Below, in pieces: positions 6,718 to 55,041 of a DNA stretch of 55,041 nucleotides. The notes beneath the pieces are model-generated. The model did not search any database. It worked only from the letters and a program-made list of their open reading frames with translations, and was not told the origin of the DNA. The translations under genes were made by a program, and so were the position numbers. Position 1 is the first letter of the stretch; each line of letters opens with the position of its first letter. The DNA comes from Kofleriaceae bacterium (lineage in GTDB: Bacteria > Myxococcota_A > Polyangia > Haliangiales > Haliangiaceae), in contig JANTGM010000030.1 in assembly GCA_024762925.1 (NCBI GenBank), positions 1 to 55,041 on the forward strand. The letters run 5' to 3'.

Positions 6718-6721
6718 TCTA

Positions 6722-6838
6722 GCGCGCGATTCATGAATATCGAACGCGCTCACTGGTCTTCTCGTCCGCTGGAGAGACTGGCTTAGCCCGTCTTCTTCGT
6801 TGTTCCTCGGTCGCTTGCCCCAGCAAACTCCCTCTTCG
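6722..6838 (+). repeat. interspersed repeat copy A (truncated)
   Basis: Left end GCGCGCGATTCATGAATAT matches copies D and E at 54598 and 54769 apart from single bases. The body (ACGCGCTCAC, CTGGAGAGACTGGC, TCGGTCGCTTGCCCCAGCAA) also matches. The right third is missing: similarity stops about 28 bp before the gnd stop codon. It lies 5 bp after the GFA-GNAT stop. Confidence 0.85.
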
Positions 6839-6865
6839 CTGGGCGCGCCCTATGTCGCACAGCCG

Positions 6866-18623: not shown

Positions 18624-18712
18624 ACGGTTGTATAAGCGCACTTTCGCTTCGCCGAATGTGCTGCTTTCTTGGGGGTAGGGCGCACACCTACCTATACTGG
18701 GCTTCTGTGTCT

Positions 18713-21700
18713 ATGAACGTAGCTCGATTGACCTTCGCTCCCCTTGTGGTTGCGCTCTCTCTACTGTGGTCTGCATCTGCCTTTGCGGCTCCAGTGAGTG
18801 GTGTTGTGTACGACGCACGCACGGGACAACCCATCTCTGGTGTGCGACTACAGTTGTTCTATGACGACAACGATCTGGCGGAACCGGGTGTGTTGGTGCC
18901 AGAGGATCGATTGCCACCACGCGAGCAAGATCAACTCAGCAAGGATGACGGTTCCTACTCTTTTGAGATGCCCTCCGGAAGGCTCTATCGCATTGGCGTC
19001 ACTTCCAACGCCGATCATGCTTCGTTTCCTTCGACCACCGTCCCGCCGCTTGCAGGCTTTGCTCGACCAGGGGAAATCGGCCCAAACTCGCCGAGTGCCA
19101 CTGGTGATCGGCCGTTCTACATGCGCTTCGATGCAACCACCGACAATCGGAGCTTTCTAAACAATCACATCGCTCTCGATCAGCTTGGCGACCGAATCAC
19201 GCTGAGTTTCAAAGCAAATCGCAAGATTGCAAGCACCGGAGATATTCTTAGTTTCTCCGCCTCGCTTGTGAATGACAGCGGAAGAAACCTAAGTGAGGCG
19301 GAAGGCCGCGGGCTCTATTTCTCGGTGGCACTCGCTCGCGGCATCTCGATGAACCTGCCATCATTGCGTGCCTCTGTGCGCTCTGAAGGCGGCAATCCTG
19401 TTGCTCAGGTGGCATCTGCGCGTCGGGTGAGCCGGTCCGGAGATCGGCTACTTCGCTTTGGGCCTTTCAATGTCCCCAGGGGCTCCACACTCGAACTTGC
19501 GTATCAAGCAACGGTCGGCATCGACACCAAGCCTGGCCGCTACGACAGCCGAATGGTCGCGGTCAGTGCATCGGGTATCAACCTAAGCCCCGAGGCCGTT
19601 GCTCAAGTAGCGATTGCGCCCGACCGAGACTTCTCTACATCAACCATTCTCGGACGAGTCTTTTGTGATGACGACGGCAATGGAGTGCAGGGCGATGGCG
19701 AAGCTGGCGTGTTCGGCGCGAAGGTGTATGCAGCAATGGGGAGTGTTGCGACCACGGACACTGCAGGACGGTTTCACATAACGCGGGTTCCGCCCGGTTC
19801 GCACGTCTTCAAACTCGATGAAGGTTCGCTCGCTGGTGGCAAGGTGCTCGGCAAAGCCACGCAGCTCTTAGTGCTCTCTGAAGGATTGCCAATGCAGTTG
19901 CACTATCCAGTGACGTGCGTGCGACGCTGGGTTGACTCGAAGGTGGCCCGCGTTGTGTTTCCCCTCGCCCAACCGAAAGACGTGCCAACGGCCGAAGAGC
20001 TTCCACCATCTCCAACCATGCAGGTTCGTGGACGCATTCAGCCCATGACATTGTCCATCGATGGCCAGCGCCACGATCTACCTGGGTTGGAGATTCGTGA
20101 AGACTTCCCACCCTCCCTGCTTGCTGCGCCGGCCAAGGGCAAGACTGGGGCGCGCCTTGTCCCTGTGCCAGCAGGGGGATTTGCGTCTGAGCTCCCTCGC
20201 TGGAACATTGTTTGGAACGAGGCGAATTTTGGTACAGCCAAGAGCTGGCGCTTTACGATTGAGAAGAGTTCTGAATCCGGATCGCTGAGTCCCGTCCTGC
20301 ACAGGTCGGGGCAAGGGGCTCCGCCTCCCGTCATCGAGTGGAATGGGCTTAGCGACGCTGACAACGAAGCAGCCCCTGCAGTCTATGTTGCGCGGCTCAC
20401 GCTCACAAGCAAGGCAGGTGTAGAGGTCGCGACCCCGCGTCATGCCTTTGCTATTGGCGGCGGTAGTGCTGGCAGTGCGACTCAGCGTGTCTTGCTAAGG
20501 GACAAGCTCTTCGCTCAGAAGGGCGGTAAGCGGGTTGCCGAAGCGGCGCTGCAAGCAGCGATTGCAAAGACTGTGACTCGCCTGGGCACTACAGGGAGAA
20601 TTCAAATTGAGGTTCATGGTGATGGTGCGGGTGACAGACTCAAGTCGGCGGTGCAGACACAGAACGAGGCAAAGTTCATCAAAGAACAGTTCGTAGCCGC
20701 AGGCATTGAAGCGAGCCGTATCGAGGCGCGCGGACGAGGTGCATCCGAACCCATTGACGCCTCAAAAGGATCAGCTGCCCGAAGCAAGAATCGAAGGGTT
20801 GTCTTTGTGGTGCAGGTACCAGTGACCGCCACCGTCGCTGTGCCGAAGTGGATTGTGGGTAAACAAGAACTGCGAGTTGCAGGGCGGATTACTCCGATAG
20901 ACGCGGAGGGCGGGTTTGAAACTGTGGTGCCCAGGCCCGCAAATGGACTTCTTGCGGTAGACATGTTGGCAGCATCGGGCCGCCGTATCGCCTTGCCGAT
21001 TCAGGTGGGCAAAGATCCGGAAGTGGATACCGAGAGCGGAAGAGAGCGAGAGTACGCGGTCGTTGGAGATCTTGCGAAGCGCGAGCTGCGAGTTGATTTC
21101 GCAACAGCGCCCTCGGACCTGTGGTTGGTGGATGCGCGCCTAACAGCTGTGGGCGCGTTACCGGTTCCAGAGCTTCAAACGGAAGTACAGGGAACGGAGC
21201 GGCGTCTAACCTCACCCATGGATTTTCGCTTGGTGGCTTCGTCGAACCTCTCAGTGAAACGCTGGGAGCTTGTTGTAGTTTCAGAGACTGGAGCCACTGT
21301 GCATCGTGCGTCGAAAGACGGCGAAGTGCCTGCAGTCCTGCGTTGGGACGGTTTGGATGATGATTCCAAGTTTGTGCTCAAATCAGGGCAGCGATATCGA
21401 TATTGGCTAGATCTCGAAACTGCCGATGCTTCCGGCATTTCTACGACGCCACGCTGGTTCTCCGTTGATCCCGCCAAGAGTGCACGCGTTCTCGATAAGG
21501 GAGGTCGCTTATTCTCTAAGTCTGGAAGCCCTCGTGCCAATCTCAAGAATCTACTGTCGCGTTTCACGGCTAGAGTCGCTAAGAAAAACTCCGATCGCTT
21601 CTCGATCGTTGTCGAAGTGGTTGGCGATCGACCTCGGGTTGATGCAGTTCGGGCGGAGTTCGTTGCGTACTTGCAGAAGCTCGGACTTAAACCTGAGCGC

Positions 21701-24700
21701 TACGACTTGGTCGCCCGTGAGCTTGTCGGCAAGCGTGACCATATCTCTATCGTTCGAGACTCTCGCCCTGCGAAGGGTGCACCACAAGTTCGCATCAATC
21801 GACGAAGAGTGGCTCTCGATGGATCGACGTTCAACGAGAACGTGAAGCTCGCCCCAGGTCATCCGCTTGTTGTCGAAGTGCAGTCTGCAAGCGGAGCCTT
21901 GTTGCGGTATGTGACTGGGCAGTCGGAGACGGCGCGCACCAGTACTGCAGGTGGTGAGTTGATTGCACCGGGACCATTGGCGCGCCCACAAAAACCGCGC
22001 GAACTTCGCGATGACGAAATTCTCGCCAGTGATACGCCGGCAAAGAGCCTTCGCGTGCATCTGCCACCGCGAGGTCAAGAACTTGGAGCCAAAGAGCTTG
22101 CGATTTCGGGTTCTGTCTCGGCCAGCAAGGTGCGGATCAACGGCAAGGCAGTTGTGGTTCGGCCCAATGGTGAATTCCACGCCATCGTTCCGCTGACGAT
22201 TGGTAAGAACACGCTCGTGATACGTGCCGACGACACACTCGGAGGGTCTTCGACAATTCGCTGGCCGGTCCGGGTCCCAAAACACCACACTGTCGCTGTT
22301 GGCATGGTTGAGGGAGTCGCAGCAACGGCTGCGACATCTCGAGGCTGGTTTGCAGATACCGCAGGTCTAGCTGGCATGGGCAGAGACACGACACTGCAAG
22401 TTGGACCGCTACTACTCTCTGCGAGGGCCCAAGGCTTTGTTCAATCTCGAATGTCGGGTGGCCGGTTCTCAGACTCGGTTGAAGTGACCGCTCACATAAA
22501 CACCGCGAGAGAGCGCGACGCGTCGGCCTTTTTTGAGCAAGTGATTGATCCAGTCCGCTCCGATCTGACGCTTGGTGATGACGCCAGGGAGGATCAGGTT
22601 GTGAACACGCGCGGAAAGCTCTATGCGAAAGTTGTTGCAGGCGATTCGATGGCCGCCATGGGAAGCGTACGCACGCGCCTTGAGGGCGGAGGAGAATTGT
22701 TCTCATACGACAGAACTGCCGATGGCGCTGTGGCAGATTTGAAGCGCGACATTGGCAACAACCAAGTAGCTGTTCGTGCGTTTTCGACAAGTGATGCTAT
22801 TCCCTCCGTTCGCGACATCAACTGGTTTCGCGCTACCGGCGGATCGCTCTACTACTTGCGCCACGGTCATGTTCTCGAGGGTTCCGAAAAAGTTCAAATC
22901 GTTGTTCGCGATCGAGACAGTGGCTTGTTGCTCAGCGCCAACGAGTTGGCTCGCGGTGTTGACTATAGCGTTGAGTATGAGGGTGGGCGTATTCGGCTGA
23001 CCGAACCACTCACAGCGGCCAATCGCTCGTCTTGGGTGATTGACAACATGGACAGCAGCAGCACTCCTATGAGCGGGAACCTCGTCTACTTGAGCGTGCA
23101 GTACGAGCACGAGGATAATGTCGCATCGGCACAGCGGAGTCGCGGAGCGTACGCGAGCACGACTCTTGAAGAACGCCTCAGTGTGGGAGCGGGAATCGTC
23201 TCGGAAGACCGCGGCGATCAAGATGGGTATCGCCTGTTGGGCGCGGATGTATCCCTCCATCTAGGCAAGTTCTCTCATCTCAGCGCGGAAGTCGCCGCAT
23301 CGAGGCAGCGCGATGCCGCGCACTTTCTATCTACCGACGGAGGTTTGTCGTTCGGTGGGTTGCAACGAGACGCCCAGTTTGAAGCCGAGGGCAGCCCTAG
23401 CTCACTCTCTGGAATGCGACTTGGTTGGAAACTCAGCGCCGACCTTGCACTTCGCGACTGGACAAAGGCAGAAGAGTTCCGAGACTCAAGCTTGAGCCTC
23501 TATGTGCAAGATCTCGATCGCGGGTTTGCGAGCGGTGGAGCGGTGTTCGACGAAGGTCGATTCAAATTTGGTGGCCGTCTCCGTCACAGAATTTCTAAGA
23601 CTGACATGTTGCTCATCCGCCATGAAGGGCAAGTCTCGCAGCAGGCTCGTGTCGGACCTACATTGGACGATGTCATGGCCAACGCTACACCGGGCACGCC
23701 AGACGAGCGGGCTTCGTACATCACCAGCGCTCAGTGGGCCCGCGATGTTGGGCGCTGGCACTACAAGTTCGAAGGCATGCATCAGCGCATTACATCAACT
23801 GCTGCATTGGCGAACAACGCGACGTCGATCGATGTGCGACGCTTGGGGCTCGGCACCCTCGCTGCCTACGATATCTCTTCACGAATTCGACTTCACGTCG
23901 GGCAGCAAGTCGTAGCCAATCAAGGCGATGCTGATCCGGTTCTCACTCCGGTCTCGCCGATGGCATCAGGTTCTCGCAGCTCTGAAGCCCTGGCTGGTCT
24001 CGTGAGCAATGTGGGTGGTGGATTCAAGCTTGCACCCGATTTGAGCGTAGGCGCTGATCTCTTCCAGCGCTGGAATGGTGATAACGCAGTTCGCGTGGGA
24101 CTTCGCAACGCTCTCTCTTCCCGTGGTTCGATGTATGTGCAGGAGCAAGTTGGCGAGGTAGATGGACGCCTTAGCAACACAACTATTGTTGGCGCTGAGG
24201 ATCGCTTTGGTGCTGATAATGGTGGTCGAACGTACGGCGAGTACCAAGTCAATCGTGGCGTTTTAGGCAACCGAAATCGCTCGGTGCTTGGCTTGGGTCG
24301 GCGCTGGCAAATCACCAAGAGTCTGGGGCTTGGCGGCGGATTTGAACATCAACAGGCCTTCGGAGGTTTCCTTCCCGATGGAACGTCGATTGGAGATGCA
24401 CAGCGCAATGTTGGGCACACCTCCATCACATATGCGCCGACCAGAACATTTCGTATTGCAGCGCAGGCCGAGCTTCGGTTGGACCATGGCGACTCAGGAA
24501 GCGGCGTCGATGCTGGCGTCTTGGGTGCGGACCCGCGTGCGGGCCAGCTGCCGGGAGGGTTCGCTGACCACGACGGCATTGCCCAAGGTGCCGCACTTAT
24601 TATCGCACCCGGCGAGCAAACTCAGCTTCTAACCGGGATTGGGGCAGAGTGGCGGCTAGCCGACAAGCACACTTGGCTTGGACGTGCACGCTCGTCGCTA

Positions 24701-25267
24701 AGCACGCGTACAGCCGCAGGCGAAGACGAGAGCCGGACTCTTGCTCGCTTTACCGAGCTCACGACAGGTTGGGCATTTCGGCCAGCCGATACGGATCAAC
24801 TTGAAGTTCTGTCTAGGTACAGCTACTTGCTCGAGCAGCGACCCAGCTTGCTAGGAAACGACTCGCGACGGGAGCGCTCCCATGTTCTTGCGGTGCTTCC
24901 CTACGCGCGGCTACCCCATCGCATCTTGCTGTCGGGCAAACTGGCCTATAAATGGAGTGAGATGAATGAGGCATTCGTAGAGTCCGAGGACATCAGTACT
25001 CGTTTTTCGACGATTCTGGCGATTGCCCGTCTCGGCTATCAGTTCTACGGAAAGTGGGACGCATTGACCGAAGCGCGAGTTCTTGGACTTTGGGGTAACG
25101 CCGATGAAGAGAGTAAGGTCGGTTCGTTGCTTGAGATTGGACACTCGGTGGGACGGCACTTGCGCCTCGGAGCAGGTTACAACTTTAGTCACTTTTCCGA
25201 TAACGAACTCGGCGACTTGCGACGCGATAGCCACGGTTTCTTCTTTCGAATGACAGGCATGTACTAG
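18713..25267 (+). CDS. giant multidomain outer membrane protein (OmpA domains and barrel)
   Basis: 2184 residues from ATG 18713, start of a signal peptide (MNVARLTFAPLVVALSLLWS). First is a carboxypeptidase-regulatory-like domain (VSGVVYDARTGQPISGVRL). An SdrD B-like repeat follows near 308-370 (FCDDDGNGVQGDGEAGV, then GRFHITRVPPGSHVF). An OmpA-like domain spans about 591-702 (RIQIEVHGDGAG, then SKNRRVVFVVQV), and a second, degenerate copy about 932-1017 (FSIVVEVVGDRPRVDAVR). The C-terminal ~990 residues are strands rich in Gly, Ser, Arg and aromatics, ending HGFFFRMTGMY with a terminal aromatic residue as in barrel proteins. It probably anchors in the outer membrane and binds peptidoglycan. 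It may be a surface assembly platform; no partner adhesin gene is adjacent. Its TAG stop is also the first three bases of repeat copy B. Confidence 0.8.
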   Translation: MNVARLTFAPLVVALSLLWSASAFAAPVSGVVYDARTGQPISGVRLQLFYDDNDLAEPGVLVPEDRLPPREQDQLSKDDGSYSFEMPSGRLYRIGVTSNADHASFPSTTVPPLAGFARPGEIGPNSPSATGDRPFYMRFDATTDNRSFLNNHIALDQLGDRITLSFKANRKIASTGDILSFSASLVNDSGRNLSEAEGRGLYFSVALARGISMNLPSLRASVRSEGGNPVAQVASARRVSRSGDRLLRFGPFNVPRGSTLELAYQATVGIDTKPGRYDSRMVAVSASGINLSPEAVAQVAIAPDRDFSTSTILGRVFCDDDGNGVQGDGEAGVFGAKVYAAMGSVATTDTAGRFHITRVPPGSHVFKLDEGSLAGGKVLGKATQLLVLSEGLPMQLHYPVTCVRRWVDSKVARVVFPLAQPKDVPTAEELPPSPTMQVRGRIQPMTLSIDGQRHDLPGLEIREDFPPSLLAAPAKGKTGARLVPVPAGGFASELPRWNIVWNEANFGTAKSWRFTIEKSSESGSLSPVLHRSGQGAPPPVIEWNGLSDADNEAAPAVYVARLTLTSKAGVEVATPRHAFAIGGGSAGSATQRVLLRDKLFAQKGGKRVAEAALQAAIAKTVTRLGTTGRIQIEVHGDGAGDRLKSAVQTQNEAKFIKEQFVAAGIEASRIEARGRGASEPIDASKGSAARSKNRRVVFVVQVPVTATVAVPKWIVGKQELRVAGRITPIDAEGGFETVVPRPANGLLAVDMLAASGRRIALPIQVGKDPEVDTESGREREYAVVGDLAKRELRVDFATAPSDLWLVDARLTAVGALPVPELQTEVQGTERRLTSPMDFRLVASSNLSVKRWELVVVSETGATVHRASKDGEVPAVLRWDGLDDDSKFVLKSGQRYRYWLDLETADASGISTTPRWFSVDPAKSARVLDKGGRLFSKSGSPRANLKNLLSRFTARVAKKNSDRFSIVVEVVGDRPRVDAVRAEFVAYLQKLGLKPERYDLVARELVGKRDHISIVRDSRPAKGAPQVRINRRRVALDGSTFNENVKLAPGHPLVVEVQSASGALLRYVTGQSETARTSTAGGELIAPGPLARPQKPRELRDDEILASDTPAKSLRVHLPPRGQELGAKELAISGSVSASKVRINGKAVVVRPNGEFHAIVPLTIGKNTLVIRADDTLGGSSTIRWPVRVPKHHTVAVGMVEGVAATAATSRGWFADTAGLAGMGRDTTLQVGPLLLSARAQGFVQSRMSGGRFSDSVEVTAHINTARERDASAFFEQVIDPVRSDLTLGDDAREDQVVNTRGKLYAKVVAGDSMAAMGSVRTRLEGGGELFSYDRTADGAVADLKRDIGNNQVAVRAFSTSDAIPSVRDINWFRATGGSLYYLRHGHVLEGSEKVQIVVRDRDSGLLLSANELARGVDYSVEYEGGRIRLTEPLTAANRSSWVIDNMDSSSTPMSGNLVYLSVQYEHEDNVASAQRSRGAYASTTLEERLSVGAGIVSEDRGDQDGYRLLGADVSLHLGKFSHLSAEVAASRQRDAAHFLSTDGGLSFGGLQRDAQFEAEGSPSSLSGMRLGWKLSADLALRDWTKAEEFRDSSLSLYVQDLDRGFASGGAVFDEGRFKFGGRLRHRISKTDMLLIRHEGQVSQQARVGPTLDDVMANATPGTPDERASYITSAQWARDVGRWHYKFEGMHQRITSTAALANNATSIDVRRLGLGTLAAYDISSRIRLHVGQQVVANQGDADPVLTPVSPMASGSRSSEALAGLVSNVGGGFKLAPDLSVGADLFQRWNGDNAVRVGLRNALSSRGSMYVQEQVGEVDGRLSNTTIVGAEDRFGADNGGRTYGEYQVNRGVLGNRNRSVLGLGRRWQITKSLGLGGGFEHQQAFGGFLPDGTSIGDAQRNVGHTSITYAPTRTFRIAAQAELRLDHGDSGSGVDAGVLGADPRAGQLPGGFADHDGIAQGAALIIAPGEQTQLLTGIGAEWRLADKHTWLGRARSSLSTRTAAGEDESRTLARFTELTTGWAFRPADTDQLEVLSRYSYLLEQRPSLLGNDSRRERSHVLAVLPYARLPHRILLSGKLAYKWSEMNEAFVESEDISTRFSTILAIARLGYQFYGKWDALTEARVLGLWGNADEESKVGSLLEIGHSVGRHLRLGAGYNFSHFSDNELGDLRRDSHGFFFRMTGMY

Positions 25268-25433
25268 TGTCGGATTCAAAAATCTTGCTCGCGCTCGCTC
25301 GGTTCTTCGCCCTCTGGCCTTCGGCTCAGCGTTGCTCAGCGCCTCCCTTGCCCCAGCAAGCTCGTTGTTCGCGCCTTGCCAGTGAACGAACTCGCATCGC
25401 AATCGTCGATCAACCATTCTGGACCCGACACTA
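25265..25433 (+). repeat. interspersed repeat copy B, 169 bp with terminal inverted repeats
   Basis: Left end TAGTGTCGGATTCAAAAAT and right end ATTCTGGACCCGACACTA are imperfect inverted repeats: the nine outermost bases TAGTGTCGG/CCGACACTA match exactly. Its first TAG is the stop codon of the giant outer membrane gene. The interior has CTTGC-CCCA-GCAAG and a TTCGC...GTGAA hairpin. The rest of the 336-bp gene-free stretch (25434-25603) has no ORF; TAGTGCTTGATTC at 25432 faintly resembles a further left end. Confidence 0.88.
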
Positions 25434-25603
25434 GTGCTTGATTCAAGGACATTGCTTATTTCTCGCCAACTCTCTCGCTGCGTGGACAATCCGCCCGGTC
25501 TTGTTCATCCAGTCTCTGCGTCCACCCAGCTCCTTCTTCACGTCTTGCCTCCAAGCACGATACCTGCGCAAGATTCGTCCCAACTCCAAAGGAGCGAGCA
25601 GTA

Positions 25604-26272
25604 GTGTCACGAAAACGATTGGGCGAAATTCTTGTTGATGCAGGGGTAATCACCCTTCGCCAGCTCGAGCACGCCCTCAACGAACAGCGACGCTGGGGTG
25701 GTCAGGTTGGTAAAATTCTGATCGACGAAGGATTCGTCACCGAAGACCTCTTGGTGCGCGCTCTTGGAAAGCAGCTCAATTTGCCTGTTGTGAGTCTCGA
25801 TGGAGCAAACGTCAAGCGCGAGACGCTGGGAAAGATTTCCATCAACTTGGCTGAGCAGCATGGGGTTTTTCCGTTTCGATTGGAGGGCAAGTTCCTCGAC
25901 GTAGCCATGAGCGACCCACTCAACATGGGCATCATCGATGAACTGCGTATTCGGACGCGACTTAACGTGCGTCCCCACCTTGCCGGCACCTCCGAAATCG
26001 ACCGAGCCATTCGGGTTCACTACAAACACGACATGGATGTTGGTGGCATCGATGTCGACTTTGGAATTGTGGAAGAGCCCGAAGAGATTCTCCACGGTCG
26101 CCCTGATGATCTCTCCGACATGCGTGAGGCCGAGATTGCAGCGCTGCAGCGAAGGCTCTCGGCACTCGAGGCGTTGGTGACCCGCGATGAAGACGTCATT
26201 CGCAAGCTGCTCGGCCTTCTCGCTGACAAAGGCGTTGCGAGTCGCGAAGAAATCTTAGAAGCGATCAAGTAG
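25604..26272 (+). CDS. stand-alone MshEN (GspE/PilB N-terminal) c-di-GMP-binding domain protein
   Basis: 222 residues with a GTG start and AAGGAG upstream. Residues 4-60 match the tandem MshEN motif: RLGEILVDAGVITLRQLEHA and GGQVGKILIDEGFVTEDLLV, the paired elements that bind cyclic di-GMP in MshE and PilB-type ATPases. The rest of the GspE-II N-domain follows (KQLNLPVVSL, FPFRLEGKFLDVAMSDP). There is no ATPase domain; a coiled-coil-like segment (EAEIAALQRRLSALEALVTR) and a short tail end the protein. It is probably a cytosolic c-di-GMP sensor or adaptor, plausibly for the type IV pilus machinery encoded 12 kb away, but the partner is inferred. Confidence 0.85.
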   Translation: MSRKRLGEILVDAGVITLRQLEHALNEQRRWGGQVGKILIDEGFVTEDLLVRALGKQLNLPVVSLDGANVKRETLGKISINLAEQHGVFPFRLEGKFLDVAMSDPLNMGIIDELRIRTRLNVRPHLAGTSEIDRAIRVHYKHDMDVGGIDVDFGIVEEPEEILHGRPDDLSDMREAEIAALQRRLSALEALVTRDEDVIRKLLGLLADKGVASREEILEAIK

Positions 26273-26344: not shown

Positions 26345-26442
26345 GGGCATGGGGCAAGCGACCGATCAAGCAACGATGAGCGTTGGCGCCTCAACGCGTC
26401 CAGTGGCGAGAAGATGAGTGAGCACACTCAATCTCTTTGACT

Positions 26443-26602
26443 ATAGAACGCGCTCACTCGCCTTCTCGCCCGAAGGAGACTGGCTCTGCCAGTCTTCTTC
26501 GTTGTTCCTCGGTCGCTTGCCCCAGCAAGCTCGTTGTTCGCGTCTTGCCAGCGAACGAATTCCCGTCGCGATCGTCGATCCACCATTCTGGACCCGACAC
26601 TA
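26443..26602 (+). repeat. interspersed repeat copy C (hybrid type)
   Basis: The body matches copies D and E (ATAGAACGCGCTCACTCGCC, then the GACTGGC-TCT-GCCAGTC hairpin with 7-bp arms). The right end matches copy B instead (ATTCTGGACCCGACACTA). The left inverted repeat is not recognisable; the 26400-26442 region is divergent. It ends two bases from the PBP1A stop codon. The GTTCGC...GCGAAC hairpin is intact. Confidence 0.85.
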
Positions 26603-26603
26603 G

Positions 26604-54583: not shown

Positions 54584-54597
54584 CTGCTGCCGCGCTC

Positions 54598-54766
54598 GTG
54601 CGCGATTCATGAATATTGAACGCGCTCACTCGTCTTCTCGCCCGCTGGAGAGACTGGCTTTGCCAGCCTTCTTCGTTCGGTCGCTTGCCCCAGCAAACTC
54701 TCTCTTCCCGCCTCGCCAGCAAACGAGCTGACTGCGATCACGAATCAATGTCCATGGATCGCGCAC
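54598..54766 (+). repeat. interspersed repeat copy D, 169 bp with terminal inverted repeats
   Basis: Left end GTGCGCGATTCATGAATAT; right end ATGGATCGCGCAC. The 9 outer bases GTGCGCGAT pair exactly with ATCGCGCAC. The interior holds CTGGC-TTT-GCCAG. Two bases (TT) separate it from copy E. It lies 14 bp after the TPR gene stop. Confidence 0.9.
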
Positions 54767-54768
54767 TT

Positions 54769-54940
54769 GTGCGCGATTCATGAATATAGAACGCGCTCAC
54801 TCGCCTTCTCGCCCGCTGGAGAGACTGGCTTTGCCAGCCTTCTTCGTTCGGTCGCTTGCCCCCAGCAAACTCTCTCTTCCCGCCTCGCCAGCAAACGAGC
54901 TGACTTCGCGATCACGAATCAATGTCCATGGATCGCGCAC
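54769..54940 (+). repeat. interspersed repeat copy E, 172 bp, near-identical to copy D
   Basis: It differs from copy D by two substitutions, one extra C in the GCTTGCCCCC tract and an inserted TC near GACTTCGCGATC, so the pair is roughly 97 percent identical. Same terminal inverted repeats. This looks like a recent head-to-tail duplication. Confidence 0.92.
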
Positions 54941-54948
54941 TAACTAAC

Positions 54949-55041
54949 TAGTGTGGGATCCAGAGGCATAGAACGCCCTGGCTCGGTTCTTCGCCCTTTG
55001 AACGCCTTCGGCTCATCGTTGCTCAGATCCTTGCTTGCCCC
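54949..55041 (+). repeat. interspersed repeat copy F, cut by the window end
   Basis: Left end TAGTGTGGGATCCAGA resembles the inverted end of copy B (TAGTGTCGG). The body (GGCTCGGTTCTTCGCCCT, then CCTTCGGCTCATCGTTGCTCAG) follows copy B rather than D/E. Continues past the window. No gene is visible between 54584 and 55041; the whole 458 bp is repeats. Confidence 0.8.

Follow-up and report, generated by a model that had tools for sequence, protein, structure and literature searches.

Eight repeat copies, some of them truncated or decayed, punctuate the 55,041-nucleotide stretch analyzed here (the window). They raise the question of what kind of repeat they are, how they spread and why so many stand where genes end. 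A sequence-only reading had noticed six of them, described them as one family of about 170-bp repeats with terminal inverted repeats and interior hairpins, and proposed MITE-like elements, REP/BIME-like repeats or a repeated small RNA.

Copies in the window and in the genome

All six copies are present where they had been placed, and there are two more, a decayed copy (25431–25604) and a fragment (26350–26441). A truncated subfamily B copy (6719–6839, minus strand) starts at a CTAG one base past a gene's TAG stop codon and is followed by a convergent 6-phosphogluconate dehydrogenase gene. In a scan with this enzyme, the nearest sequences came from Nannocystis (67%) and from Myxococcota MAGs. 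The complete subfamily A copy (25264–25434, minus strand) runs CTAG TGTCGG...CCGACA CTAG, and its left CTAG contains the TAG stop of a 2,203-residue ORF (18656–25267). It has a CTAG in common with the old, strongly decayed copy beside it (25431–25604, minus strand; recognized by an nhmmer score of 19 and its edges), whose other edge, GTAG, lies just ahead of the next gene's GTG start and which is missing from the orthologous spacer in the same genus. Farther along, a subfamily D fragment (26350–26441, plus strand) adjoins a chimeric copy truncated at one end (26437–26603, minus strand), in which the low-coordinate half is B-type and the other half, ending in CCGACA CTAG, is A-type. Two complete subfamily B copies form an array, unit 1 (54595–54769, minus strand) with edges CTCG and CTTG, and unit 2 (54766–54943, minus strand) 97% identical to unit 1. 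Finally, a subfamily C copy (54948–55041, minus strand) begins at a CTAG and then runs off the contig end, and many other contig ends of the assembly likewise break within repeat copies. The copies are related, as the single-family description implied, but they fall into different subfamilies, and the copy at 26437 joins two of these.

The genome, assembled in 246 contigs, measures 6.79 Mb, and the window is its contig C30. Searching the whole genome and its relatives, as the sequence-only reading had suggested, reveals hundreds of copies here and none that can be recognized in 34 relatives of the order. The core CTTGCCCCAGCAA has 351 matches with at most one mismatch, compared with 6 for the reversed pattern, and 280 exact matches, compared with 0. 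This excess, about 345 core matches above background, means that the copies are not chance occurrences. Full-length copies are also recovered by blastn, with E values down to 1e-76 besides the query itself. By contrast, exact core matches number only 0–2 per genome in these 34 relatives, which include two members of the same genus; a whole B copy used as blastn query has no match in the two same-genus genomes, and the family was not seen in the plasmids searched. A viral contig that matches the core pattern proved to be unrelated sequence without the element's ends.

Our statistics rest on ~1.16 Mb of stretches mostly picked around copies, a sample biased for density but not for edges. In it, nhmmer finds 208 matches, 12 of which belong to an unrelated family, G (see below). 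There are at least six subfamilies, which begin TGTCGG.. (A), TGCGCGAT.. (B), TGTGGG.. or TGTGCGG.. (C), TGCGTGAT.. (D), TGCCA.. (E) and TGTCTAG.. (F). With 171–184 bp including edges, ~345 copies, and terminal inverted repeats with defined ends, they have the hallmarks of MITEs, which are repeated elements below ~400 bp without a transposase ORF. Mosaics are common, the window copy at 26437 being an example. Median divergence from consensus is 3.9% in subfamily B and 5.5% in A, and the burst is therefore not very recent.

CTAG edges and stop codons

Well-defined ends emerge once more copies are aligned. The terminal inverted repeats had been taken for the ends, but the true edge, CTAG or C-N-N-G, lies immediately beyond the TGTCGG and TGCGCGAT termini, giving a general form CTAG-TG[CT]...GATYC. 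An ab initio search for inverted repeats with a palindromic tetranucleotide at each edge yields 38 from 2,021 sites for CTAG, compared with 3 from 5,342 for GATC and 0 from 2,311 for GTAC; only GCGC comes near that number (36), but from 9,216 sites in GC-rich DNA. An edge CTAG stands at the left of 81 and at the right of 73 copies (~110 each). It flanks both sides in 38 of 87 complete copies, and relatives carry a single CTAG. Adjacent copies usually have one edge tetranucleotide in common, and 92 clusters include 27 pairs and 2 triples.

Variation within these edges, mostly to GA/TC, is found in the middle TA; the outer C and the element's own G hardly ever change (outer base 88/90 and 95/97). 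Because CTAG is palindromic and the outer bases are fixed, duplication of TA and duplication of CTAG as the target fit equally well. Left and right edges of a copy are often unequal in the middle dinucleotide (CTAG/CGAG in 10 cases, CTAG/CCAG in 5), which is not expected of simple duplication and would count against the elements being IS630-type MITEs. Across the genome, edge changes are almost confined to the middle TA, mainly as A to C (CTCG/CGAG), and leave the outer C and G unchanged, a pattern accounted for neither by simple mutation nor by a plain duplication of the target.

The edges often coincide with gene ends. Among 78 gene 3′ ends that flank copies, 29 fall exactly in an edge CTAG, and orthologues in two same-genus genomes terminate at that point to within 0–4 residues; of 11 such orthologues, 6 have a CTAG stop with no element, and none carries the repeat. 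For example, both same-genus orthologues of the 2,203-residue window ORF (18656–25267) end in CTAG without a repeat, and in one of these relatives the next gene begins ~30 bp beyond, a gap filled here by two elements (25264–25434 and the decayed 25431–25604). At this and other loci, the two same-genus genomes provide the empty sites expected of a MITE. Because C-TAG cannot lie in frame inside a gene, edge stops are native stops unless the gene has been shortened. As the orthologues in the genus stop there too, often at an empty CTAG, insertion spares the gene. Among 895 ORFs of at least 100 residues predicted by a simple caller, 484 end in TAG, more than in any other stop codon, and C precedes the TAG in 224 cases. 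Nearly half of TAG stops are thus CTAG, supplying many landing sites. The 3′-end placement needs no regulatory explanation, in our inference, as available non-coding CTAGs and purifying selection would suffice. Orientation relative to genes is random, both in tandem contexts (24/24) and at 3′ ends (25 same, 27 opposite).

Other CTAG-bounded repeats were also encountered. Family G of the same genome, with the form CTAG-AGCGTATCTCAC...ATGAGATACGCT-CTAG and a length of ~160–190 bp, has 12 matches in 1.16 Mb (e.g. contig C49 4704–4778, L048 1698–1769 and C20 12861–12931), and its ends resemble those of an IS630 relative, L130 (CTAGAGCATGATCC). A third is the short palindrome CTAGTTTTTGTCCCTAGCGGGACGGAAACTAG, which often follows CTTGCTCGCAAGCGTTAG hairpins, adjoins MITEs and occurs on contigs C37, C49, C58, C6, L017, L023, L027 and L047. 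A same-genus genome, G001, has its own 181-bp, near-palindromic CTAG-bounded family (L185 3721–3901, L199 and L200), with three complete copies that are 92–100% identical; six further genomes that were searched, among them the Kofleriaceae source genome (G000) and G002, lack this family.

A common hairpin fold

Nine subfamily representatives assume one common, long imperfect hairpin, with 90.5% of alignment cells paired as opposed to 33–40% when the structure is slid. In 25 of 51 pairs both sides have changed, a number reached in 0 of 500 shuffles; with nine related rows and a structure derived from the same alignment, this evidence is strong but not independent. One strand is favored, as arm mismatches are purine–purine in 52 cases and pyrimidine–pyrimidine in 8, and G-U in 38 and A-C in 20. 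Folding energies favor the same strand in 7 of 8 representatives, D being the exception, and purines predominate among the unpaired bases. If one arm were repaired from the other, the arms could stay complementary, but this alone would not give purine loops fixed on one strand.

Selection for the fold had been proposed from one copy, the chimera at 26437, whose first hairpin was read as extended to GACTGGC...GCCAGTC by paired changes. This longer stem is instead the consensus state of the subfamily, from which the copies at 54595 and 54766 have drifted. The more general proposal survives at one level only: covariation is real between subfamilies (25/51 compensatory pairs) and supports selection on the fold there, but such support is not seen among copies of one subfamily, where G-U-preserving and pair-breaking transitions number 44:51 in A and 68:59 in B, which is not convincing. 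We read this as a constraint that acts on source elements and not on resident copies. We see no host function, as individual copies drift and their orientation to genes is random.

These observations bear on an alternative in which the repeats are dispersed structured RNAs or regulatory elements (an mRNA 3′-end stabilizer, an attenuator or a small RNA) kept by the host and merely spread by transposition. The hairpin kept between subfamilies, the better folding of one strand in most of them with its largely purine unpaired bases, and the location of copies at gene 3′ ends would all suit such a role. Nevertheless, we consider it unlikely: the copies are randomly oriented to neighboring genes, within subfamilies there is no clear preference for changes that preserve G-U pairing, the family is restricted to one species, and CTAG stop codons explain the 3′-end position. 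The earlier suggestion of a repeated small RNA fares no better, as the Rfam 15 covariance models give no match at the gathering threshold; a match to an lncRNA family (E 0.58), seen only at a relaxed Rfam threshold, is attributable to chance.

The fold does sit awkwardly with the simplest form of a MITE. A plain MITE would need neither the hairpin body, rich in purines, nor a core that hardly varies (GCTTGCTGGGGCAAG, GAGCAAC and AAGGCGCGAA), and both count against that reading. Compensatory changes over at least six subfamilies, fixed purine–purine loops and this core form the basis of a more tentative proposal, to which we give perhaps one chance in a few: the strand-specific body could be a working RNA or single-stranded-DNA module that serves the element's spread or tolerance. 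If so, these MITEs would carry a nucleic-acid module, for example to process transcripts or to recruit a host factor, beyond the ends used by the transposase.

IS630 elements as the likely source

The sequence-only reading saw no encoded transposase, which holds for the window but not for the genome, where matches to DDE_3 (IS630) mark decayed transposase fragments joined to halves of repeats. On contig C40, a B-type end leads straight into transposase sequence, whose stop lies just before an end of the form TTTTCTATGCCTATGATCCAGACA-CGAG that resembles the ends of subfamilies C and E; on contig C140, a C-type end leads into the same transposase gene. No intact transposase was found in the genome, an assembly of 246 contigs broken at repeats, and a scan of genome contigs with the transposase as query found no relative. 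Among 379 genomes of the phylum, the nearest relative of the transposase is an intact 319-residue ORF with 53% amino-acid identity, and this IS630 relative has ends of the type CTAG-TGCGGGATTCA. Its 28-bp ends are CTAGTGCGGGGATCACAGATACGGGAGG and CCTTCCGTATTTTTGAATCCCGCACTAG (in short form, CTAGTGCGGGGATCACAG../..TTTTTGAATCCCGCACTAG). Beside CTAG, the right end agrees with a MITE end in 12 of 14 positions and the C40 end does so in 11 of 14, in each case better than any of 1,924 other CTAG flanks. The left end is weaker (10/14, reached by 0.5% of other CTAG flanks). A second IS630 relative also has CTAG on both sides. Homology of the repeats to these insertion sequences is confined to ~15–25 bp at the ends. 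A search for a transposase with matching ends, as had been advised, thus leads to an IS630 (DDE_3) relative, and to decayed pieces in the genome itself.

Shared ends, target and chimeras lead us to infer that the repeats are IS630-type MITEs, a reading to which we assign a probability of about 0.9. The MITE-like option of the sequence-only reading is thereby borne out and narrowed to the IS630 family and a CTAG target. IS630 itself targets TA within CTAG (Tenzen & Ohtsubo 1991, as cited in PMC2170065). In our model, an IS630-family transposase would bind the terminal repeats and excise the element, which would then be inserted at the TA of a CTAG with duplication of the target. Insertion into a C-TAG stop would regenerate CTAG and leave the protein intact; because CTAG is regenerated, stop codons and other non-coding CTAGs would be tolerated as landing sites. 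The CTAGs at element edges could be targeted anew, generating head-to-tail and mixed arrays, and chimeras and internal deletions probably arise when gaps are repaired or copies recombine. Source elements would have passed on the long hairpin body, with single copies decaying without visible selection.

An IS5-family source with a 4-bp CTAG/YTAR duplication, as reported for MITEPsy1 (PMC3189936), is improbable. It would account for the same target word, and a PF01609 fragment does lie inside one repeat on contig C213, but that match falls under the curated cut-off, interrupts the repeat mid-way and has no ends in common with it, and the repeat ends match IS630 elements instead. Flanked by a B-type half and, opposite, an A-type end, this PF01609-like transposase fragment (contig C213 1–480, L162) is foreign sequence caught between halves of MITEs. 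In the remaining earlier option, a RAYT (Y1 tyrosine transposase) would mobilize REP/BIME-like palindromes through their single-stranded hairpins. This option fits the high copy number, extragenic sites, strong hairpins and some paired or tandem arrangements, but can be set aside with little hesitation, as the genome has no Y1_Tnp match although the same search is positive in 5 of 14 control genomes, and the ~175-bp elements are too long, with terminal inverted repeats, CTAG on both sides and ends that match DDE-type insertion sequences.

As IS630-type MITEs, the repeats add a new case, with heavy amplification, to an already known kind of element. Set beside described systems by description, the nearest is RUP of Streptococcus pneumoniae, a 107-bp MITE with IS630-Spn1 ends and 110 copies in one genome (PMC3049150). 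Both have IS630-like ends, high copy number, a predicted RNA hairpin and proposed mobilization in trans; the repeats here are longer (171–184 bp) and more numerous (several hundred copies), are divided into at least six subfamilies, occupy CTAG sites, stop codons included, and form arrays and chimeras. The same transposase family includes IS630 of Shigella sonnei and ISY100 (IS630/Tc1-mariner; PMC2170065), and IS630 also uses TA within CTAG (Tenzen & Ohtsubo 1991, cited there), but these elements are autonomous, whereas the repeats are non-autonomous derivatives for which only decayed transposase was found. MITEPsy1 of Pseudomonas syringae is likewise a MITE that duplicates a CTAG (or YTAA) target on insertion; however, it was proposed to derive from ISPsy2 (IS5 family), is 100 bp long, has few copies and has unrelated ends, GGAAGGTCTG... 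(PMC3189936). By description, Correia/NEMIS and ERIC elements are MITEs too, lie between genes, number tens to hundreds and have bodies that fold as RNA, but unlike the present repeats they have known effects on mRNA processing (PMC10969869). REPs and REPINs with RAYT are also repeated, palindromic and extragenic, but use a Y1 tyrosine transposase and short REP units, neither of which was found here (PMC2817692, PMC3116915). No described family with the stop-codon pattern was found in the open-licence literature searched.

More broadly, the repeats are evidence of a large expansion of MITEs, restricted to one species, in a Myxococcota-affiliated genome, and link it to a group of IS630 elements that strongly prefers CTAG. 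They show a route to harmlessness, in which an element lands in CTAG stop codons and restores them. Because this 246-contig genome breaks partly at copies, such repeats may be under-seen in short-read assemblies. Finally, the conserved one-strand hairpin raises a testable question, namely why some bacterial MITEs keep elaborate folds.
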